DNA of 64,000 nt from an uncultured Chitinophagaceae bacterium (GTDB taxonomy: Bacteria > Bacteroidota > Bacteroidia > Chitinophagales > Chitinophagaceae), in the NCBI GenBank assembly GCA_903881425.1, contig CAIRTF010000114.1, positions 1 to 64,000 on the forward strand, read 5' to 3'. The notes below the pieces were generated by a model that was not told the origin of the DNA, ran no database searches, and was given only the letters and a program-made list of their open reading frames with translations. The position numbers and the translations under genes were made by a program. Shown here in pieces: positions 25,741 through 33,564 of this stretch. The first letter of the stretch is position 1. Every line of letters starts with the position of its first letter.

Positions 25741-25758
25741 GTTGATATAAGTATCAAC
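25741..25758. promoter_or_regulatory. Palindrome GTTGATA-N4-TATCAAC
   Basis: Perfect 7-bp arms with a 4-nt spacer. It lies between the divergent radical SAM gene and the 25856 gene. On the plus strand a run of eight T follows after 6 nt, so a weak terminator is also possible. Its spacing differs from the FNR-like sites nearby. Confidence 0.4.
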
Positions 25759-25803
25759 CAGGATGTTTTTTTTACAATCTTTTGACAGGAATCAATGTGA
25801 GAT

Positions 25804-25817
25804 ATGACAAATATCAG
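25804..25817. promoter_or_regulatory. FNR/CRP-like site upstream of the 25856 gene
   Basis: ATGACAAATATCAG contains TGAC-N4-ATCA, the TGA-N6-TCA spacing of CRP/FNR operators. Its centre (25810.5) lies 29.5 nt before the -7 element TATTTTTG (25840-25847). That places it near -41.5 relative to the predicted start, the class II activator position. Confidence 0.55.
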
Positions 25818-25839
25818 TGGAAACTCTATTACAGGCGGA

Positions 25840-25847
25840 TATTTTTG
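25840..25847 (+). promoter_or_regulatory. -7 promoter element of the 25856 gene
   Basis: TATTTTTG matches TAnnTTTG. No -33 TTTG is present at the usual distance; the FNR-like site occupies that place, as expected of a class II activated promoter. Transcription would begin only a few bases before ATG 25856. Confidence 0.5.
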
Positions 25848-25855
25848 TTTGTAGT

Positions 25856-26236
25856 ATGAATATTGTTTTGGAAGATACTATGCATTTGTCTGATGTTTAT
25901 GAGGCATTCAATCATTTATTTCCTTTTCTAAGAATTGAATTTTTTGAAAAGAGAAATAGTGGAGCAGTGCTGCGTCGTTTTGTAAACGAAGCTCAAAAAA
26001 CTTTGAAGGAATTTAAATACCCTTATGCAAATGGGCGAAAACTTGTTATTTCACCCAATACAACCGTGCAGGAATTAGATAAAATGTTTACTGAAACCTA
26101 TGCTTTACAGTTACAAGTATTTCGAAAATCAGGAAATATTTGGTTAGAAACAACAGTTACTGATAACTGGACATTGGAAGAACAAAATGAACAGGGCGAA
26201 GCCATCACCGCTCAGATGAATAGAAACAAATTGTAA
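25856..26236 (+). CDS. Conserved protein of unknown function at the edge of the respiration island
   Basis: A 126-residue soluble protein from ATG 25856 (an ATG at 25880 is the alternative and would leave a normal leader). Visible features are FNHLFPFLRIEFFEK near the start and a C-terminal stretch LQLQVFRKSGNIWLETTVTDNWTLE; no cysteines in the mature part and no membrane helix. I do not recognise a named family. An FNR-like site and promoter precede it, and it converges with the receiver-CRP gene (8 nt between stops), which suggests control by that regulator. Confidence 0.7.
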   Translation: MNIVLEDTMHLSDVYEAFNHLFPFLRIEFFEKRNSGAVLRRFVNEAQKTLKEFKYPYANGRKLVISPNTTVQELDKMFTETYALQLQVFRKSGNIWLETTVTDNWTLEEQNEQGEAITAQMNRNKL

Positions 26237-26244
26237 TCTTCTTA

Positions 26245-27309
26245 TTAATTTTTCAACTGACTTAATTTCGCATAATTCAAGATGGTAATTCTGCTTGCCT
26301 GAATTTCAATCAATTTCTCATCTTTTAGATCACTTAAAGTTCTGATGGTACTTTCTGTTGCTGTGCCTGCAAGGTTAGCCAGATCTTCTCTTGAAATACT
26401 GATGGTAAAATTATGTTGGTCACCTTCGTTTTTATAACGATCGTATAAAGTGATCAATGCATCTGCTACTTTTTTTCTTACAGAGTTATATGCCAGTTTC
26501 AATAATTGTTCTTCTTTTTCATGCAAATTGTCGGAAAGCATTTTAATAAACTTCTTAGATATTTCAGAGCTTTTATATAACAATGAATAGAAGTCTGCTT
26601 TTGGTATCAAACAAATTTCTGAATCTTCCAACGTGGTAGCAAAGTCGGAATATTTGGTGTCTTCCAATAAAGCCAGGTAACCAAAAAAATCTCCTTCTTT
26701 ATATAATCCTGTGATGAACTCTTTTCCGTAATCACTTACTTTATATGTTTTTACTTTTCCTTTATTTAAGAAATAAATGCCTTTAGGAAAACTTCCTTCG
26801 CGGTAGATATCTTCTTTTTTTCTGAACAACCTTAATTCCTGTTCTTGTGAAATTGCTTTTAATACATCAAAGCCCTTTGCCTGATTCATAAATTCATTCA
26901 GCCCTTCAATATTTTTGGTGTATTCTCTTTTTAAGAGATCTGCTTTTCTGCATCTGCTTTCCACAGCATTCAGTAATTCAATATCATCAAATGGTTTAGT
27001 AATATAATCATCTGCACCCATTTCCATTCCTTTTCGATAATCGCTTCTTTCTGCTTTTGCAGTTAAAAAAATAAAAGGAATATTAGCCGTTTCTGTATTT
27101 TTTGAGAGCATGTGTAAAGTGCCATAACCATCTAATAATGGCATCATAATATCGCAAATGATAAGATCCGGTAATTCTTTGTGGGCCAGCTCTACACCTT
27201 CTTTTCCGTTCTTTGCAGCAATTACTTCATAACCGGCTAATACTAATATCTCTGCCGTATTCTCACGCATTTCTAAGCTGTCTTCAATCAATAAAATTTT
27301 TTTACTCAT
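26245..27309 (-). CDS. Fused response regulator: receiver + cNMP-binding + CRP-type HTH
   Basis: A 354-residue regulator. Receiver domain 1-125 with phosphorylatable Asp53 (LIICDIMMPLLDGYG), FLTAKAE and the Lys of ITKPFD. Then a cyclic-nucleotide-binding-like fold (about 150-270: DIYREGSFPKGIYFLNKGKVKTYK, KEGDFFGYLALLED) and a CRP HTH (about 285-345: ISREDLANLAGTATESTIRTL). There is no cysteine cluster of the FNR oxygen sensor, so signal input should come through the receiver. It overlaps the kinase gene by 4 nt (ATGA), indicating translational coupling. The HTH motif suggests TGA-N6-TCA targets, three of which lie in this island. Confidence 0.92.
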   Translation of the reverse strand: MSKKILLIEDSLEMRENTAEILVLAGYEVIAAKNGKEGVELAHKELPDLIICDIMMPLLDGYGTLHMLSKNTETANIPFIFLTAKAERSDYRKGMEMGADDYITKPFDDIELLNAVESRCRKADLLKREYTKNIEGLNEFMNQAKGFDVLKAISQEQELRLFRKKEDIYREGSFPKGIYFLNKGKVKTYKVSDYGKEFITGLYKEGDFFGYLALLEDTKYSDFATTLEDSEICLIPKADFYSLLYKSSEISKKFIKMLSDNLHEKEEQLLKLAYNSVRKKVADALITLYDRYKNEGDQHNFTISISREDLANLAGTATESTIRTLSDLKDEKLIEIQASRITILNYAKLSQLKN

Positions 27310-28535
27310 TGGTTAATATTATTGGGTAGTTGAATAATAAAGGTAGTGCCTTCGCCAACTTTGCTTTCAAAGTTAATATCGCCGTTCAATATTTCAATAT
27401 ACTTGGCAACGATATTTAAGCCTAATCCAGTTCCTTGGATGTTGGTAGCATTATGCCCTCTGAAAAATCTTTCAAATAAATGTTCTTTATCTTCTTCGCT
27501 GATGCCGATCCCATGGTCTCTTACTGTTAATCTTAATTGAATACCTGAAACATGTGTAGTTACATCAATGGTTTTGTTTTCCGGAGAAAATTTAATGGCA
27601 TTAGAAATAAGATTGAAGAAAAGGTTTCTTAATATTTTTTTATCCAGATATACTTCTCTAAGTCCATCATGATTATAAATGATGCGCTGACCATTTTTGG
27701 CAACTGCTTGAAGTTCTGTAACAACTTGAGTTACAAATTCAATGATATCAAATCTTTCTAATGCAGCAGTAATTTTTCCTTCTTCCAATTTACTGATTGA
27801 TAACATATCGTTCAAAATATCCGTCATATGCGAAACAGAAGATTTCACTCTTTCAATATGACGCATTTCATTTTCTTTATCATTTTGTTCGCGATATTTT
27901 GTTACCAATACTATAGAAGAAAGAATGGTTGCTAACGGCGTTCTGAATTCGTGAGATGCCATCGATACAAATCTTGATTTCATCTCATTCAATTCTTTCT
28001 CCTTTTCTAATGCAATACTTAATTCTTCTCTCGATTTTTCTAATTGGTGTAAGGCTTCTTCCAGAATCATTGTTCTGTCTTTCACTCTTTTCTCTAAGTC
28101 TTTAGTTAATATTTCCAGTTCTTCTTTTTGTTTTTTAATATAATCTTCATTCTTCTTTCTGGTGGTGATATCAATGATAAAAGCAATCACAAATTTTTCT
28201 GTAGATGTTTCTAAAGGACTTAAACTTACTTCCACAGAAAATTCTTCGCTGTTTTTTCTCTTTCCATAAAGATCCATTCCAATACCCATGGTTCTGGGAT
28301 GCGGATTCTTATTGAATTTTTCGCGATGCGCAGAATGATTGTGTGCAAATCTTTGCGGGATTAACAATTCAATTGGATTGCCTTGCAGTTCACCATTTTC
28401 ATAACCAAATAATTTTTCGCAGGCAGGATTGGCAAGAATAATTTTTCCTGATTGATTGACCAGCAAGATTCCTTCGGTTGCATATTCAAACAATGCTTTG
28501 AATTTTTCTTCACCGTAAAAAATTTCGCTTGTCAT
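27306..28535 (-). CDS. Soluble PAS histidine kinase, FixL-like candidate haem sensor
   Basis: A 409-residue cytosolic kinase from ATG 28535 (upstream TTG rejected). PAS domain about 10-125, coiled coil about 125-190, HisKA with FVSMASHEFRTPLATI, HATPase with NLISNAIKFSPE, VRDHGIGI and GTGLGLNIV. In the PAS domain, counting back from the GIG motif (GIGMDLYGKRK) as in Bradyrhizobium FixL places His67 exactly at the FixL haem ligand His200. The distal Arg220 of FixL is replaced by Met87. Haem binding is therefore possible but unproven; many PAS domains of this subtype share the His. It is co-translated with the receiver-CRP gene. Confidence 0.9.
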   Translation of the reverse strand: MTSEIFYGEEKFKALFEYATEGILLVNQSGKIILANPACEKLFGYENGELQGNPIELLIPQRFAHNHSAHREKFNKNPHPRTMGIGMDLYGKRKNSEEFSVEVSLSPLETSTEKFVIAFIIDITTRKKNEDYIKKQKEELEILTKDLEKRVKDRTMILEEALHQLEKSREELSIALEKEKELNEMKSRFVSMASHEFRTPLATILSSIVLVTKYREQNDKENEMRHIERVKSSVSHMTDILNDMLSISKLEEGKITAALERFDIIEFVTQVVTELQAVAKNGQRIIYNHDGLREVYLDKKILRNLFFNLISNAIKFSPENKTIDVTTHVSGIQLRLTVRDHGIGISEEDKEHLFERFFRGHNATNIQGTGLGLNIVAKYIEILNGDINFESKVGEGTTFIIQLPNNINQ

Positions 28536-28608
28536 ATATGTCAATTATTTAAAATGACGGTGCAAGTTAAAAGTTTGATGCACGCAATACTTGCAATTTA
28601 ATCAAAAC

Positions 28609-28622
28609 ATGATGAAAATCAT
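28609..28622. promoter_or_regulatory. FNR/CRP-like site between the kinase and ccoI
   Basis: ATGATGAAAATCAT contains TGAT-N4-ATCA and is a near-perfect palindrome. Its centre (28615.5) lies 50.5 nt before TACCTTGC (28666-28673), a weak -7 element of ccoI, i.e. near -62, the class I position. GGCAA-N4-TTGCC (28661-28674) overlaps that element. The site is also 75 nt upstream of the divergent kinase start and could serve both directions. Confidence 0.6.
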
Positions 28623-28691
28623 ATTTAAGGTTGAGCATCATCAGTTTCAAAAACCTTGAGGGCAATACCTTGCCTCTGCTTAAATTAATTT

Positions 28692-31091
28692 ATGTCTTTA
28701 TTATCTACAAATACATATGTTCAATGTTATCATTGCGGTGAGGATTGTGATGTGCATCCCATTCTTGCACATGATAAACAATTTTGTTGTGAAGGTTGCA
28801 GAATGGTATTTGAAATATTGAATCAAAACGGGATGTGTGATTATTATGCCATCAGTAAAAATCCGGGCATTAATCAGCGCATTCGTGTTCGGGAAAACAA
28901 GTTTGCTTTTTTAGACGATGGTGCGATACAACAATCATTGATTGTTTTTAAAAATGATGATGAAACGCATATCAGTTTTTATTTACCGCAAATCCATTGC
29001 AGCAGTTGTTTATGGTTGTTGGAAAATTTACACCGATTAGATGATGCTATAATCAGATGCAAAATAAATTTCACCAGAAAGGAAGCAGATATTGTTTTTG
29101 ATCAGCGATTCACCTCCATTCGAAAAATAGCTGAACTGCTTACCAGTATTGGCTATGAGCCTTATATCAGTTTAAAGGATATTCAACATGCCAAACCAAC
29201 TATTGATAAATCAAAAATTTACAAATTAGGTGTGGCAGGTTTTTGTTTTGCTAATATTATGTTACTGAGCTTCCCTGAATATTTAGGGATTGATTCGAAA
29301 GAACAAAATTTATTAGTCATATTCCGTTACCTGAATGTATTGTTGAGCTTACCTGTATTTTTTTATTCCGGTTCAGAGTTTTATATCAGCGCATGGAAAA
29401 GTTTGAAGCATGGTTTTTTAAATATTGATGCACCAATTGTTTTATCAGTTATTGTTACTTTTTGCAGAAGTTTATATGAAGTATTTACTAATCAGGGTGT
29501 GGGATATTTTGATAGTATGAGTGGTATTGTATTTTTTATGTTAGTGGGAAGAGTGTTGCAGGATAAGACTTACGAGCAATTGAGTTTTGAAAGAGACTAT
29601 ACTTCTTATTTTCCCATTGCTGTCACTAAACTAAAAGACAAAGAAGAACAAACTGTTCCTTTACCTGATATTCAATTGAATGATACTTTGTTGATTCATA
29701 GCCAGGAATTAATTCCGGCAGATGGCATATTAACGAGAGGCAAAGCATTGATCGATTATAGTTTTGTTACCGGAGAAAGTATTCCCGTTGAAAAAGAAAT
29801 GGGAGAAATTATTTATGCAGGAGGTAAACAAATTGGAGGCAATATAGAATTGTTGGTGATCAAAGAAGTTGCACAAAGTTATCTTACCAAATTATGGAAC
29901 AGAGAAGAATTGCAGAAAAATAAAAAAGATGAAGAACGTTCTTTTGTGCATTTATTGAGTCGCTATTTTACTTGGATTTTTTTTGCCATTGCTATTTCAG
30001 CAGCTGTGTATTGGTCATTTCACGATCATGCTAAAATGTGGACCGCTGCAACAGCAGTACTGATTGTGGCTTGTCCTTGTGCACTGTTGTTAAGCAATAC
30101 CTTTACTAATGGAAATATTTTACGAAGATTAGGTCGCAATCATTTTTATTTGCGAAATGCACAAACCATAGAAGATATTGCCAACATTGATTACATCGTA
30201 TTCGATAAAACAGGAACATTAACTACCGGAGAATATCATCACATTGTTTATGAAGGCCAGCCATTGAACAAAGAGATGAAAATTAAAATAGCTTCTCTGG
30301 CAGTTCAATCAACACATCCGATGAGTAAAGCCATTGCTTCATGGTTGAATGAATCCAATCGTTATGAATTGATGGTATTTGAAGAATTTACCGGCAAAGG
30401 AATTGAAGGAATTGTGGAGAATGAATTGATTGTATTGGGATCTAAAACATTTGTAACAGATAATGCATTGGAGAAAGACATTGAATCAACCGTTTATTTG
30501 AAAGTGGGCAATACTATCTTAGGAAGATTTAGTTTTCAAAATAATTATCGGGAAAAAATTCCAACATTAATAAAAAAATTACGCAATCATTACGGTTTAT
30601 CCGTTTTAAGTGGTGATAATGATGGTGAGAAAAAATATTTAAAAGATTTATTGGGTCATTATGCAAATATTTCTTTTCACCAAAAACCGGAAGATAAGTT
30701 AGAAGCCATTCAACAATTACAAAGAACCGGAAGAAAAGTAATGATGATTGGTGATGGGTTAAATGATGCAGGCGCATTAAAACAAGCTAATGTTGGTATT
30801 GCGGTTACCGAGAACAGCAATACATTTACTCCTGCAAGTGACGGCATATTACAAGCTAATCAATTACATCGATTATATACATTCATTCGTTTATGTAAGG
30901 CCAATAAAAGAATTATAATGTTTGCCTTCATTATTTCTATTTTATATAATATCGTTGGCCTCTCTTTCGCAGTAAAAGGGTTACTATCACCAATGAAAGC
31001 CGCAATCTTAATGCCTTCCAGCACTATCAGTATTTTATTGATCACATTTGGTTTAAGTAATTTAATTGCAAAAAAAATGAGCTTGAAATAA
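28692..31091 (+). CDS. ccoI: Copper-translocating P-type ATPase for cbb3 oxidase assembly (CcoI/FixI)
   Basis: A 799-residue P1B ATPase. The N-terminal 90 residues hold a cysteine-rich metal-binding module (CYHCGEDC, CCEGC) typical of the CcoI-type N-domain, then a ferredoxin-like HMA domain with HCSSCLWLLENL. Core motifs: CPC in VACPCALLLS, phosphorylation DKTGTLT, TGES, HP (THPMSKAI) and MIGDGLNDAGAL. It delivers copper to the binuclear centre of cbb3 oxidase. It has its own FNR-like site and is followed by a hairpin and then the ccoS promoter, so it is probably a separate unit. Confidence 0.95.
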   Translation: MSLLSTNTYVQCYHCGEDCDVHPILAHDKQFCCEGCRMVFEILNQNGMCDYYAISKNPGINQRIRVRENKFAFLDDGAIQQSLIVFKNDDETHISFYLPQIHCSSCLWLLENLHRLDDAIIRCKINFTRKEADIVFDQRFTSIRKIAELLTSIGYEPYISLKDIQHAKPTIDKSKIYKLGVAGFCFANIMLLSFPEYLGIDSKEQNLLVIFRYLNVLLSLPVFFYSGSEFYISAWKSLKHGFLNIDAPIVLSVIVTFCRSLYEVFTNQGVGYFDSMSGIVFFMLVGRVLQDKTYEQLSFERDYTSYFPIAVTKLKDKEEQTVPLPDIQLNDTLLIHSQELIPADGILTRGKALIDYSFVTGESIPVEKEMGEIIYAGGKQIGGNIELLVIKEVAQSYLTKLWNREELQKNKKDEERSFVHLLSRYFTWIFFAIAISAAVYWSFHDHAKMWTAATAVLIVACPCALLLSNTFTNGNILRRLGRNHFYLRNAQTIEDIANIDYIVFDKTGTLTTGEYHHIVYEGQPLNKEMKIKIASLAVQSTHPMSKAIASWLNESNRYELMVFEEFTGKGIEGIVENELIVLGSKTFVTDNALEKDIESTVYLKVGNTILGRFSFQNNYREKIPTLIKKLRNHYGLSVLSGDNDGEKKYLKDLLGHYANISFHQKPEDKLEAIQQLQRTGRKVMMIGDGLNDAGALKQANVGIAVTENSNTFTPASDGILQANQLHRLYTFIRLCKANKRIIMFAFIISILYNIVGLSFAVKGLLSPMKAAILMPSSTISILLITFGLSNLIAKKMSLK

Positions 31092-31113
31092 TTTATCTAT
31101 AATAATCCTTATC

Positions 31114-31143
31114 AATAATGGCTGCTGAATAGTGGCCATTATT
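31114..31143 (+). terminator. Hairpin after ccoI
   Basis: Perfect 9-bp stem AATAATGGC / GCCATTATT with a 12-nt loop, 22 nt after the ccoI stop. The tail is AT-rich but lacks a long T-run, so termination is probably partial. Confidence 0.45.
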
Positions 31144-31154
31144 ATTTATAAAAT

Positions 31155-31168
31155 ATGATAAATGTCAT
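31155..31168. promoter_or_regulatory. FNR/CRP-like site upstream of ccoS-ccoNO
   Basis: ATGATAAATGTCAT is a palindrome with TGAT-N4-GTCA. Its centre (31161.5) lies 51.5 nt before the -7 element at 31213, so near -62 relative to the predicted start. Confidence 0.6.
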
Positions 31169-31189
31169 TTTTTGGGGTGAGCAATGTCA

Positions 31190-31220
31190 TTGTCGAGAGC
31201 AACAATCACAAATATTTTTG
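31190..31220 (+). promoter_or_regulatory. Promoter of the ccoS-NOQP operon
   Basis: -33 TTG (31190-31192), 20-nt spacer, then TATTTTTG (31213-31220), an exact TAnnTTTG match. Transcription should start near 31225. Confidence 0.6.
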
Positions 31221-31240: not shown

Positions 31241-31387
31241 GTGAGTGTAATTATCCTTTTATTAATCGCAAGTATATCGGTTGCCTCACTTTTTCTTGCA
31301 GCATTTATTTGGAGTGTAAAAACGGGTCAGTATGATGATGAAGCATCTCCTCCTGTAAGAATTTTATTTGATGACTTCAAAAAATAA
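31241..31387 (+). CDS. ccoS: cbb3-type oxidase assembly protein CcoS
   Basis: A 48-residue single-helix membrane protein: SVIILLLIASISVASLFLAA then FIWSVKTGQYDDEASPPVRILFDD. The helix followed by W-x3-GQYDD-x4-P-x-R-x-LFDD is the CcoS hallmark. I chose GTG 31241 because family members begin at this point and the predicted transcription start (about 31225) lies downstream of the in-frame ATG at 31184. CcoS is needed for cofactor insertion into cbb3 oxidase. It leads the structural operon. Confidence 0.88.
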   Translation: MSVIILLLIASISVASLFLAAFIWSVKTGQYDDEASPPVRILFDDFKK

Positions 31388-31431: not shown

Positions 31432-33564
31432 ATGCAAGTAGAAAAATTTTATTACGATAACAAGATTGTAAAAATGTTTGCCTACGCTACTATGCTTTGG
31501 GGCGTGGTTGGTATGTTGGCAGGTTTATTAATTGCGGTGCAGATATATCTACCTGCAGCCAATTTTAATTTGCCGATTACTACATTTGGTCGTGTTCGCC
31601 CTGTGCATACCAATGCAGTCATTTTTGCATTTGTAGGCAACGGAATTTTTATGGGAGTGTATTATTCTTTGCAACGTTTGTGCAAAGCAAGAATGTTCAG
31701 TGATACATTGAGTAAAATTCATTTCTGGGTTTGGCAATTAATTATTGTTGCAGCAGCGGTTACATTATTAGCCGGTTACACAAGTGGTAAAGAATACGCA
31801 GAATTAGAATGGCCTATTGATATTGTGATCACTTTAGTATGGGTTGTATTTGGTATCAATATGTTTGGTACTATTTTAAAAAGAAGAGAAAGTCATTTGT
31901 ATGTAGCTATCTGGTTCTATATCGCTACATGGGTTACTGTTGCCATGTTGCATATCGTTAACTCTTTCGAAATTCCTTTTTCTTTCATGAAGAGTTATAG
32001 TTTTTATGCAGGTGTGCAGGATGCATTGGTGCAATGGTGGTATGGACATAATGCTGTTGCTTTCTTTTTAACAACGCCTTATTTAGGATTGATGTATTAC
32101 TTCTTACCAAAGGCTGCGAATCGTCCCGTGTATAGTTATCGTTTATCTATCATTCACTTCTGGGCTTTGATATTTATTTATATCTGGGCAGGACCTCACC
32201 ATTTATTATATACTGCATTACCTGATTGGGCACAAAGTTTGGGAACTGTTTTCAGCATTATGTTGATTGCACCAAGTTGGGGCGGTATGTTAAATGGATT
32301 ATTTACACTTCGTGGTGCATGGGATAAAGTAAGAGAAGAGCCTGTATTAAAATTTTTAGTAGTTGCTGTTACTTGTTATGGTATGGCAACTTTTGAAGGA
32401 CCGATGCTGAGTTTAAAAAGTGTAAATGCGATTTCGCATTTTACTGATTGGACCATCGCTCACGTTCATATTGGTGCATTGGGATGGAATGGCTTTATGA
32501 CATTTGGTGTTTTATATTGGTTAATACCAAGAATCTTCAATACTACTTTATATTCTAAAAAATTAGCGACCACACATTTTTGGATTGGCACATTAGGTAT
32601 TGTGTTATATGCATTACCAATGTATTGGGCAGGATTTACACAAGCAGAAATGTGGAAACAATTTACAGAAGAAGGTCAGATTAAATATCAATTCTTAGAA
32701 ACTGTTACACATATTATTCCAATGTATGTAACCCGAAGTTTAGGTGGTGCATTATACATTTCAGGAGTATTTGTAATGATCTATAATATCTGGAAAACAG
32801 TTGCGCAAGGTAAATTAATAGAGAACGAAGAAGCCGAAGCAGCACCACTACCAAAAGTTGCAGAAACACATGGCAAACAATATTGGCACAGATGGATTGA
32901 GAGAAGACCCATTCAAATGTTGGTGTTGAGTTTGGTGTTAGTGGCCATTGGTGGTTTATTAGAATTGGTTCCAACATTTTTAATAAAGAGTAATATTCCA
33001 ACCATCGCATCAGTAAAACCATATACACCGCTTGAATTACAAGGAAGAGATATTTATATACGTGAAGGATGTTACTTATGTCATTCTCAAATGATTCGTC
33101 CTTTCCGTGATGAAGTAGCTCGTTATGGTGAATACAGCAAAGCAGGTGAGTTTGTTTATGATCATCCATTTCAATGGGGAAGTAAAAGAACAGGGCCTGA
33201 TCTGGCACGCATTGGTGGAAAATATCCTGATAGTTGGCATTACAATCATATGTCTGACCCCCGCAGCATGAGCCCTGGTTCTATTATGCCATCATATTCA
33301 TGGCTATTGGATAATAAGTTAGATACTGCTATCACCCCTGCAAAAATAAGGGCTATGCAAACATTGGGTGTTCCTTATCCTGAAGGCTATGATAAAAAAG
33401 CAAATGAAGATTTAGTGGCGCAGGAAAATTTAATTAAAGCGAATTTGAAAAAGGATAAAATAGAAACACCAGCCAATGCAGAGATTGTAGCATTGATTGC
33501 TTATTTGCAAAGAATGGGAACAGATATTAAAGGAGAAAAAAAGCAAGTTGCTTCTTTGCCTTAA
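31432..33564 (+). CDS. ccoNO: cbb3 cytochrome oxidase, fused subunits I and II (CcoNO)
   Basis: A 710-residue fusion. Residues 1 to about 470 are the haem-copper oxidase subunit I (CcoN) with about twelve helices and the conserved histidines (RPVHTNAVIF, WYGHNAVAFFLT, GPHHLLY, AHVHIGALGWNG). After a linker and another helix (about 500-520), residues from about 535 are CcoO with one haem c site (EGCYLCHSQMIRPF) and the axial methionine region SPGSIMPSYSWLL. It reduces oxygen at high affinity in micro-oxic conditions. The N-O fusion is usual in Bacteroidota, unlike the separate genes of Proteobacteria. Confidence 0.96.
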   Translation: MQVEKFYYDNKIVKMFAYATMLWGVVGMLAGLLIAVQIYLPAANFNLPITTFGRVRPVHTNAVIFAFVGNGIFMGVYYSLQRLCKARMFSDTLSKIHFWVWQLIIVAAAVTLLAGYTSGKEYAELEWPIDIVITLVWVVFGINMFGTILKRRESHLYVAIWFYIATWVTVAMLHIVNSFEIPFSFMKSYSFYAGVQDALVQWWYGHNAVAFFLTTPYLGLMYYFLPKAANRPVYSYRLSIIHFWALIFIYIWAGPHHLLYTALPDWAQSLGTVFSIMLIAPSWGGMLNGLFTLRGAWDKVREEPVLKFLVVAVTCYGMATFEGPMLSLKSVNAISHFTDWTIAHVHIGALGWNGFMTFGVLYWLIPRIFNTTLYSKKLATTHFWIGTLGIVLYALPMYWAGFTQAEMWKQFTEEGQIKYQFLETVTHIIPMYVTRSLGGALYISGVFVMIYNIWKTVAQGKLIENEEAEAAPLPKVAETHGKQYWHRWIERRPIQMLVLSLVLVAIGGLLELVPTFLIKSNIPTIASVKPYTPLELQGRDIYIREGCYLCHSQMIRPFRDEVARYGEYSKAGEFVYDHPFQWGSKRTGPDLARIGGKYPDSWHYNHMSDPRSMSPGSIMPSYSWLLDNKLDTAITPAKIRAMQTLGVPYPEGYDKKANEDLVAQENLIKANLKKDKIETPANAEIVALIAYLQRMGTDIKGEKKQVASLP

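Follow-up and report, generated by a model that had tools for sequence, protein, structure and literature searches.

A haem-PAS-type kinase and a receiver-CRP fusion as probable readers of conserved FNR-type operators in the micro-oxic island of a Chitinophagaceae bacterium

In the FixL–FixJ–FixK2 pathway of rhizobia, His200 of FixL serves as the proximal haem ligand and Arg220 as the distal residue that contacts oxygen. The one-component protein FG214 of Fimbriimonas ginsengisoli (PDB code 10jx) carries a haem PAS domain with His156 as proximal ligand together with Met172, and in PAS domains of this type redox and ligand state act as the switch (PMC13060918). Within Bacteroidota, oxygen sensing and the switching on of cbb3 oxidase are poorly known outside obligate anaerobes. 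In Flavobacterium psychrophilum, a member of this phylum, oxygen limitation induces cbb3 and haem synthesis genes, the −7 box of promoters has been mapped at −12 to −5, and a TAnnTTGY variant of this box has been named SM5 (PMC9723704). A full-text search of the literature turned up no paper that describes a receiver-CRP as regulator of oxygen sensing or cbb3 in Bacteroidota.

We analysed the genome of an uncultured Chitinophagaceae bacterium (GCA_903881425.1; 2.75 Mb, 217 contigs, completeness 99.4%) with a focus on the first 64,000 nucleotides of contig CAIRTF010000114.1 (positions 1 to 64,000, forward strand), hereafter the window. On balance we regard it as probable that a haem-PAS kinase acts through a receiver-CRP fusion on an inherited FNR-type micro-oxic regulon with conserved operators. 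The genes concerned are as follows.

25856–26236, plus strand: the 25856 gene, predicted protein of 126 amino acids, kept next to receiver-CRP or ccoI throughout Bacteroidota
26245–27309, minus strand: receiver-CRP fusion, 354 amino acids (REC, cNMP-fold and Crp-type HTH)
27306–28535, minus strand: PAS-HisKA-HATPase sensor kinase (HK), 409 amino acids
28692–31091, plus strand: ccoI, P-type copper ATPase
31241–31387, plus strand: ccoS, GTG start
31432–33564, plus strand: fused ccoN-ccoO

The first-pass annotation had placed one TGAY-N4-RTCA palindrome before each of the 25856 gene, ccoI and ccoS-NOQP. Re-reading of the sequence confirmed the three palindromes and the two TATTTTTG boxes at their positions and revealed a second site 22 bp away at each promoter, so that the three promoters carry six sites.

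25783–25794, plus strand: distal site TGACAGGAATCA of the 25856 gene, centre −63.5, a perfect motif overlooked earlier
25805–25816, plus strand: proximal (class II) site TGACAAATATCA of the 25856 gene, centre −41.5
25840–25847, plus strand: −7 box TATTTTTG of the 25856 gene
28610–28621, plus strand: distal site TGATGAAAATCA of ccoI, centre −62.5
28632–28643, plus strand: proximal site TGAGCATCATCA of ccoI, centre about −40.5, overlooked earlier
28666–28673, plus strand: −7 box TACCTTGC of ccoI, TAnnTTGY type; its counterpart in G074 is TAACTTGC
31156–31167, plus strand: distal site TGATAAATGTCA of ccoS-NOQP, centre −63.5
31178–31189, plus strand: proximal (class II) site TGAGCAATGTCA of ccoS-NOQP, centre −41.5, overlooked earlier
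31213–31220, plus strand: −7 box TATTTTTG of ccoS-NOQP

At every one of these promoters the sites form a tandem TGA-N6-TCA pair with a spacing of exactly 22 bp (starts, read from the sequence: 25783/25805, 28610/28632 and 31156/31178). With the box set at −12 to −5, the pair centres fall at −41.5/−63.5 before ccoS-NOQP and the 25856 gene; those of ccoI are one base nearer, at −40.5/−62.5, and its box (TACCTTGC) is of the TAnnTTGY rather than the TAnnTTTG type. The class II dyad at −41.5 thus lies 23 bases from the TAnnTTTG box, the transcription start being placed from the position of that box. The earlier assignment of a class II position and of a further upstream site stands, with the upstream centre moved from about −62 to −63.5 (−62.5 for ccoI). 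Together these positions support the prediction that the three units are preceded by sites for a CRP/FNR-type activator, one in the class II position (−41.5) and one farther upstream (−63.5). Another palindrome, GTTGATATAAGTATCAAC (TGAT-N6-ATCA; window 25741–25758), precedes the −41.5 site of the 25856 gene by 60 bp; it is kept in G074, a comparison genome of the same genus, and its spacing is wider than that of the regulon motif. On the minus strand at 28563–28570, TAACTTGC constitutes a possible promoter box for HK, of the TAnnTTGY type like that of ccoI.

The palindrome by itself is common: the window contains 9 copies against 6.3 expected, a number reached in 14 of 100 shuffles, and the whole genome contains 286. 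We scanned the genome for TGAY-N4-RTCA followed by TAnnTTTG with a gap (the bases between site and −7 box) of 20 to 50, giving 31 possible values. Twelve of the 22 pairs recovered fell on a gap of 23 (seven pairs) or 45 (five pairs) (binomial p = 1.8e-9), and with one mismatch allowed a gap of 23 yielded 31 matches against 2 for the reversed pattern. Across the 119 genomes of our family survey, a gap of 23 occurred 451 times, compared with 30 for the off-phase control (a gap of 29) and 23 for the second control, the reversed pattern. The signal is thus the distance to the −7 box, which is beyond chance.

The upstream region of ccoS-N was compared among 78 fetched islands, 74 of which contain a perfect site. 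Site/box pairs had a gap of 23 or 45/46 in 52 of 53 cases, and the reversed-pattern control gave 0. The double operator was conserved in 62 of the 78 islands. That search fixed no more than the distal site and, at the correct overall distance, a TAnnTTTN box; the 12 bases left free between them resolved to TGAG-N4-RTCA, the proximal half. The double operator was detected in 41 of 51 genomes with receiver-CRP only, in 13 of 15 with both receiver-CRP and FNR, and in 8 of 11 with FNR only, with an identical consensus in all these classes. At the 25856 gene and at ccoI, G074 preserves the tandem sites together with the −7 boxes amid flanking sequence that has diverged; its ccoS promoter retains the distal site and box, with a weaker proximal site. 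Orthologues of the 25856 gene also have phased sites upstream, often in tandem, so that the search in relatives proposed in the first-pass annotation found the sites conserved. The predicted 25856 protein had no match in Pfam or NCBIfam, and its confident AlphaFold model (pLDDT of 92) gave no convincing match in the PDB, the best (E = 0.12) being weakly ubiquitin-like.

The sites had been interpreted as a local regulon with its own regulator. Locality does not hold, because phased sites are spread genome-wide before genes for haem synthesis, cytochrome c maturation and anaerobic metabolism. In the window genome and seven related genomes they precede hemA, hemN, ccmE, pdxH, ppdK, PFOR, RIC and osmC. 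First genes behind them in the window genome are hemA, pdxH, ppdK, osmC and a ccmE-like gene; another target is a small DUF2892-like gene, behind which lies a rhodanese gene. A phased site stands before hemA in six of the eight genomes, every time with a gap of 24; pdxH (four genomes), ppdK (three), hemN (two) and PFOR (two) also recur, and further targets in the relatives include 2-oxoacid:ferredoxin oxidoreductase, RIC/YtfE, cytochromes c and the 25856 gene. Nine target families were checked with NCBIfam, most scores being below full-length cut-offs because only NH2-terminal parts were submitted, and the remaining targets were named by reading their sequences. The ccmE-like protein had no NCBIfam match, and its name rests on its sequence and neighbour. 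None of 33 promoters checked for the HK/receiver-CRP operon contained a phased site, and autoregulation by this route was rejected.

No FNR orthologue was found in the window genome or in G074. Relatives encode true FNR orthologues, most of which have a CxxC-x8-C motif and a central cysteine; in those of loci L130, L134, L185 and L196 the third NH2-terminal cysteine is absent and cysteines at 38–40 and 59–61 are present instead, so that the Fe-S ligands may differ. In G025, G038 and G073, FNR and a hemerythrin-like gene lie between a radical-SAM gene and ccoI (the order in G073 being radical SAM, lysozyme, FNR, hemerythrin, ccoI), and the closest receiver-CRPs are encoded elsewhere. G062 lacks FNR alone and still has the hemerythrin-like gene. 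In the window, the FNR–hemerythrin stretch is replaced by the 25856 gene, receiver-CRP and HK. The genus of the window genome has lost FNR, and this module fills its place. The hemerythrin-like gene that relatives have between FNR and ccoI was noted in loci L126 (3088–3654, counted from the end of ccoN), L127, L132 and L135; it is absent from the window.

In the family survey, ccoN was present in 79 genomes and absent from 40. Among the former, 15 encode both regulators, 11 FNR only, 52 receiver-CRP only and one neither; one or the other regulator thus accompanies ccoN in 78 of 79 genomes (Fisher p = 8e-6, kinship being ignored). The cco operator is also present in FNR-using relatives and was therefore not made for receiver-CRP, so that the "own regulator" of the first-pass annotation has to be given up in that sense. 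Receiver-CRP in turn is present in 20 of the 40 genomes without ccoN and is thus not dedicated to cbb3.

As a candidate for the protein that reads these sites, receiver-CRP fared best, on indirect evidence. Residues D10, D53 and K105 of its receiver domain, corresponding to the acidic pair, phosphoacceptor Asp and Lys of two-component response regulators, are invariant in an alignment of 14 such proteins. Its Crp-type HTH has the recognition helix TATESTIR, in which E319 and R323, the Glu and Arg of a TGA-reading helix, are likewise invariant. The helix of receiver-CRP (GTATESTIRTLSDLK) and that of the relatives' FNR (GTATESTIRLLSEFK) have GTATES(T/L)IR-x-LS (TATES-x-IR) in common, and receiver-CRP is the only protein of its genome with this helix, the other CRP-family HTHs having TREAVSR, TRVVLSR or TPISLSR. 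The best CRP-type NCBIfam model for the CRP half was Fnr, below its cut-off. The only cysteines of receiver-CRP are at positions 52, 120 and 233, and the set of NH2-terminal and central Fe-S ligand cysteines is not present. Its output region is a cNMP-fold with HTH_Crp_2, not a LuxR-type HTH as in FixJ; like FixK2 it lacks Fe-S ligands, yet it is fused to a receiver rather than free-standing. In an unrooted tree of CRP domains, FNR formed one clade apart from the receiver-CRPs, the outgroup branches of CRPs from the window genome being too long. Genomes with receiver-CRP only contained 286 matches with a gap of 23 against 20 off-phase, a 14-fold difference. The FNR-like helix, the loss of FNR and this excess of phased sites bear out the first-pass proposal of receiver-CRP as regulator to the extent that it is the best candidate, and most likely the protein that reads the sites of the cco island. 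In 18 genomes with neither FNR nor receiver-CRP, the corresponding numbers were 18 and 2, suggesting that further members of the CRP family are able to use the site or that some regulators escaped detection.

In nearly all loci of the family and of the phylum, the kinase gene immediately precedes that of receiver-CRP, and the pairing extends to Runella, Dyadobacter, Emticicia, Reichenbachiella and Chitinophaga. By sequence, the best solved relatives of the kinase's PAS domain were FG214, FixL and DosP, all of them haem PAS domains, and the top 21 fold matches of its structure model (pLDDT of 92) were all haem-PAS structures. In an alignment of 107 kinases, His67 corresponds to the proximal haem ligand His200 of FixL and to His156 of FG214 and is kept in 106; Met83, which corresponds to Met172 of FG214, is kept in 94. 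The position of the distal Arg220 of FixL is occupied by Met87 in the window kinase, with R in 36 and M in 42 of the 107. The PAS matches and the alignment of His67 suggest that the domain likely binds haem and senses oxygen. The Met in place of FixL Arg220 speaks against this reading, and His67 might be conserved in this PAS subgroup for a reason other than haem. In Pontibacter, Rufibacter and Adhaeribacter (L285, L291, L293–L295, L301, L307 and L315), the kinase beside receiver-CRP has no match to this PAS domain and a second, PAS-containing kinase is encoded upstream, accompanied in L285 and L291 by a lone receiver; this arrangement looks like a phosphorelay variant. Loci L279 and L326, titled Alphaproteobacteria and Azovibrio restrictus, contain clearly Bacteroidota receiver-CRP/HK operons and are probably mis-binned contigs.

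In the mechanism that we propose, the operators belong to a micro-oxic regulon that is probably controlled by FNR in related genera and that the genus of the window genome would read through a two-component system. When oxygen is low, the PAS kinase (27306–28535), probably a FixL-type haem sensor, would phosphorylate receiver-CRP (26245–27309), which would then dimerize and bind TGAY-N4-RTCA by its CRP/FNR HTH, which has a recognition helix matching the one in Bacteroidota FNR. Two dimers would bind abreast at ccoS-NOQP, ccoI and the 25856 gene, 22 bp apart at about −41.5 and −63.5, with that at −41.5 making a class II contact with RNA polymerase; elsewhere receiver-CRP would drive promoters with single −41.5 sites, such as those of hemA, ccmE, pdxH, osmC and others. 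The steps that we infer are binding of the sites by receiver-CRP, activation of transcription, control of the protein by phosphorylation, and oxygen, perceived through haem, as the signal.

Another protein of the CRP/FNR family might bind the operators, with receiver-CRP regulating something else. We consider this improbable, even though the small excess of phased sites in genomes without FNR and receiver-CRP is in keeping with it. The example at hand is a 201-amino-acid CRP (C53:2899–3501), which has a CRP-like E-x-x-x-R helix (TREAVSR) and adjoins the phased site of a neighbouring operon. That helix is, however, unlike the helix of FNR, and orthologues are absent from G074, G025, G073, G038 and G062 (best hits of 34–39%), all of which retain phased sites, as well as from the site-rich genomes G063, G046, G098 and G090 (37–42%), which have receiver-CRP only. 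We rejected this CRP as the binder on the grounds that its orthologue is missing in most site-bearing genomes. Least probable of all is an Fe-S FNR hidden in an assembly gap that reads the sites, with receiver-CRP as a second, modulating input. An assembly in 217 contigs leaves room for such a gene, and 15 genomes with ccoN do encode both proteins, but the completeness of 99.4%, the lack of FNR here and in G074 with its place filled by the 25856/receiver-CRP/HK module, and the independent in-place loss in G062 all speak against it.

It is also conceivable, albeit unlikely, that receiver-CRP binds as proposed but that the kinase senses redox, NO, CO or haem, or that the protein is an antiactivator. 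The replacement of FixL Arg220 by Met, the response of FG214-type PAS domains to redox and ligand state (PMC13060918), and the presence of RIC/YtfE-like nitrosative-stress genes among the phased targets would fit a different signal. The targets cbb3, hemA, hemN, ccmE and PFOR nonetheless make up the set of an oxygen-limitation regulon, cbb3 and haem synthesis genes of F. psychrophilum are induced by oxygen limitation (PMC9723704), and sites at −41.5 fit activation.

More broadly, the haem-PAS kinase/receiver-CRP pair may be an alternative low-oxygen master switch of Bacteroidota that has repeatedly replaced FNR at shared operators, a proposal to which we give about even chances. Such repeated replacement would mean that whole regulons change their sensor, from Fe-S cluster to phosphorelay, while cis-sites and spacing stay fixed. 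If true, it would provide a clean natural case of a regulon that keeps its operators while its sensor is swapped. The idea is directly testable, given that kinase, regulator, operator and targets are specified in culturable Chitinophaga, Runella, Dyadobacter, Emticicia and Reichenbachiella.

Among solved structures, the nearest relative of both Bacteroidota FNR and the CRP half of receiver-CRP is CrpPg (PG0396) of Porphyromonas gingivalis (PDB code 2gau; PMC12040651), which differs in being free-standing, without a receiver domain and without a link to cbb3 oxidase. FG214, to which the PAS domain is nearest by sequence among solved proteins, shares the His-x2-H-x12-M arrangement, but it is an HTH-PAS transcription factor with no kinase, and its distal His175 corresponds to Gly86 in the window kinase (PMC13060918). 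With FNR/Anr the system has in common the recognition-helix residues, the type of operator, the class II position and the kind of regulon (cbb3, hem genes and PFOR), whereas receiver-CRP has a phosphoacceptor receiver domain in place of the NH2-terminal cysteine cluster. The resemblance to FixL–FixJ–FixK2, for which fixNOQP is equivalent to ccoNOQP, comprises a PAS-haem-type kinase, a receiver, a CRP/FNR-type module, an FNR-like box and cbb3 targets; the LuxR-type output of FixJ is not found here, and Arg220 of FixL is not conserved. Given that the receiver and the CRP-type DNA-binding domain reside in one protein, one transcriptional step of the rhizobial system is missing, and by analogy the locus can be read as a shortened Fix-type pathway leading to cbb3 oxidase and the other parts of the micro-oxic programme, with a FixL-like kinase, a receiver–FNR-type fusion and operators held in common with FNR.
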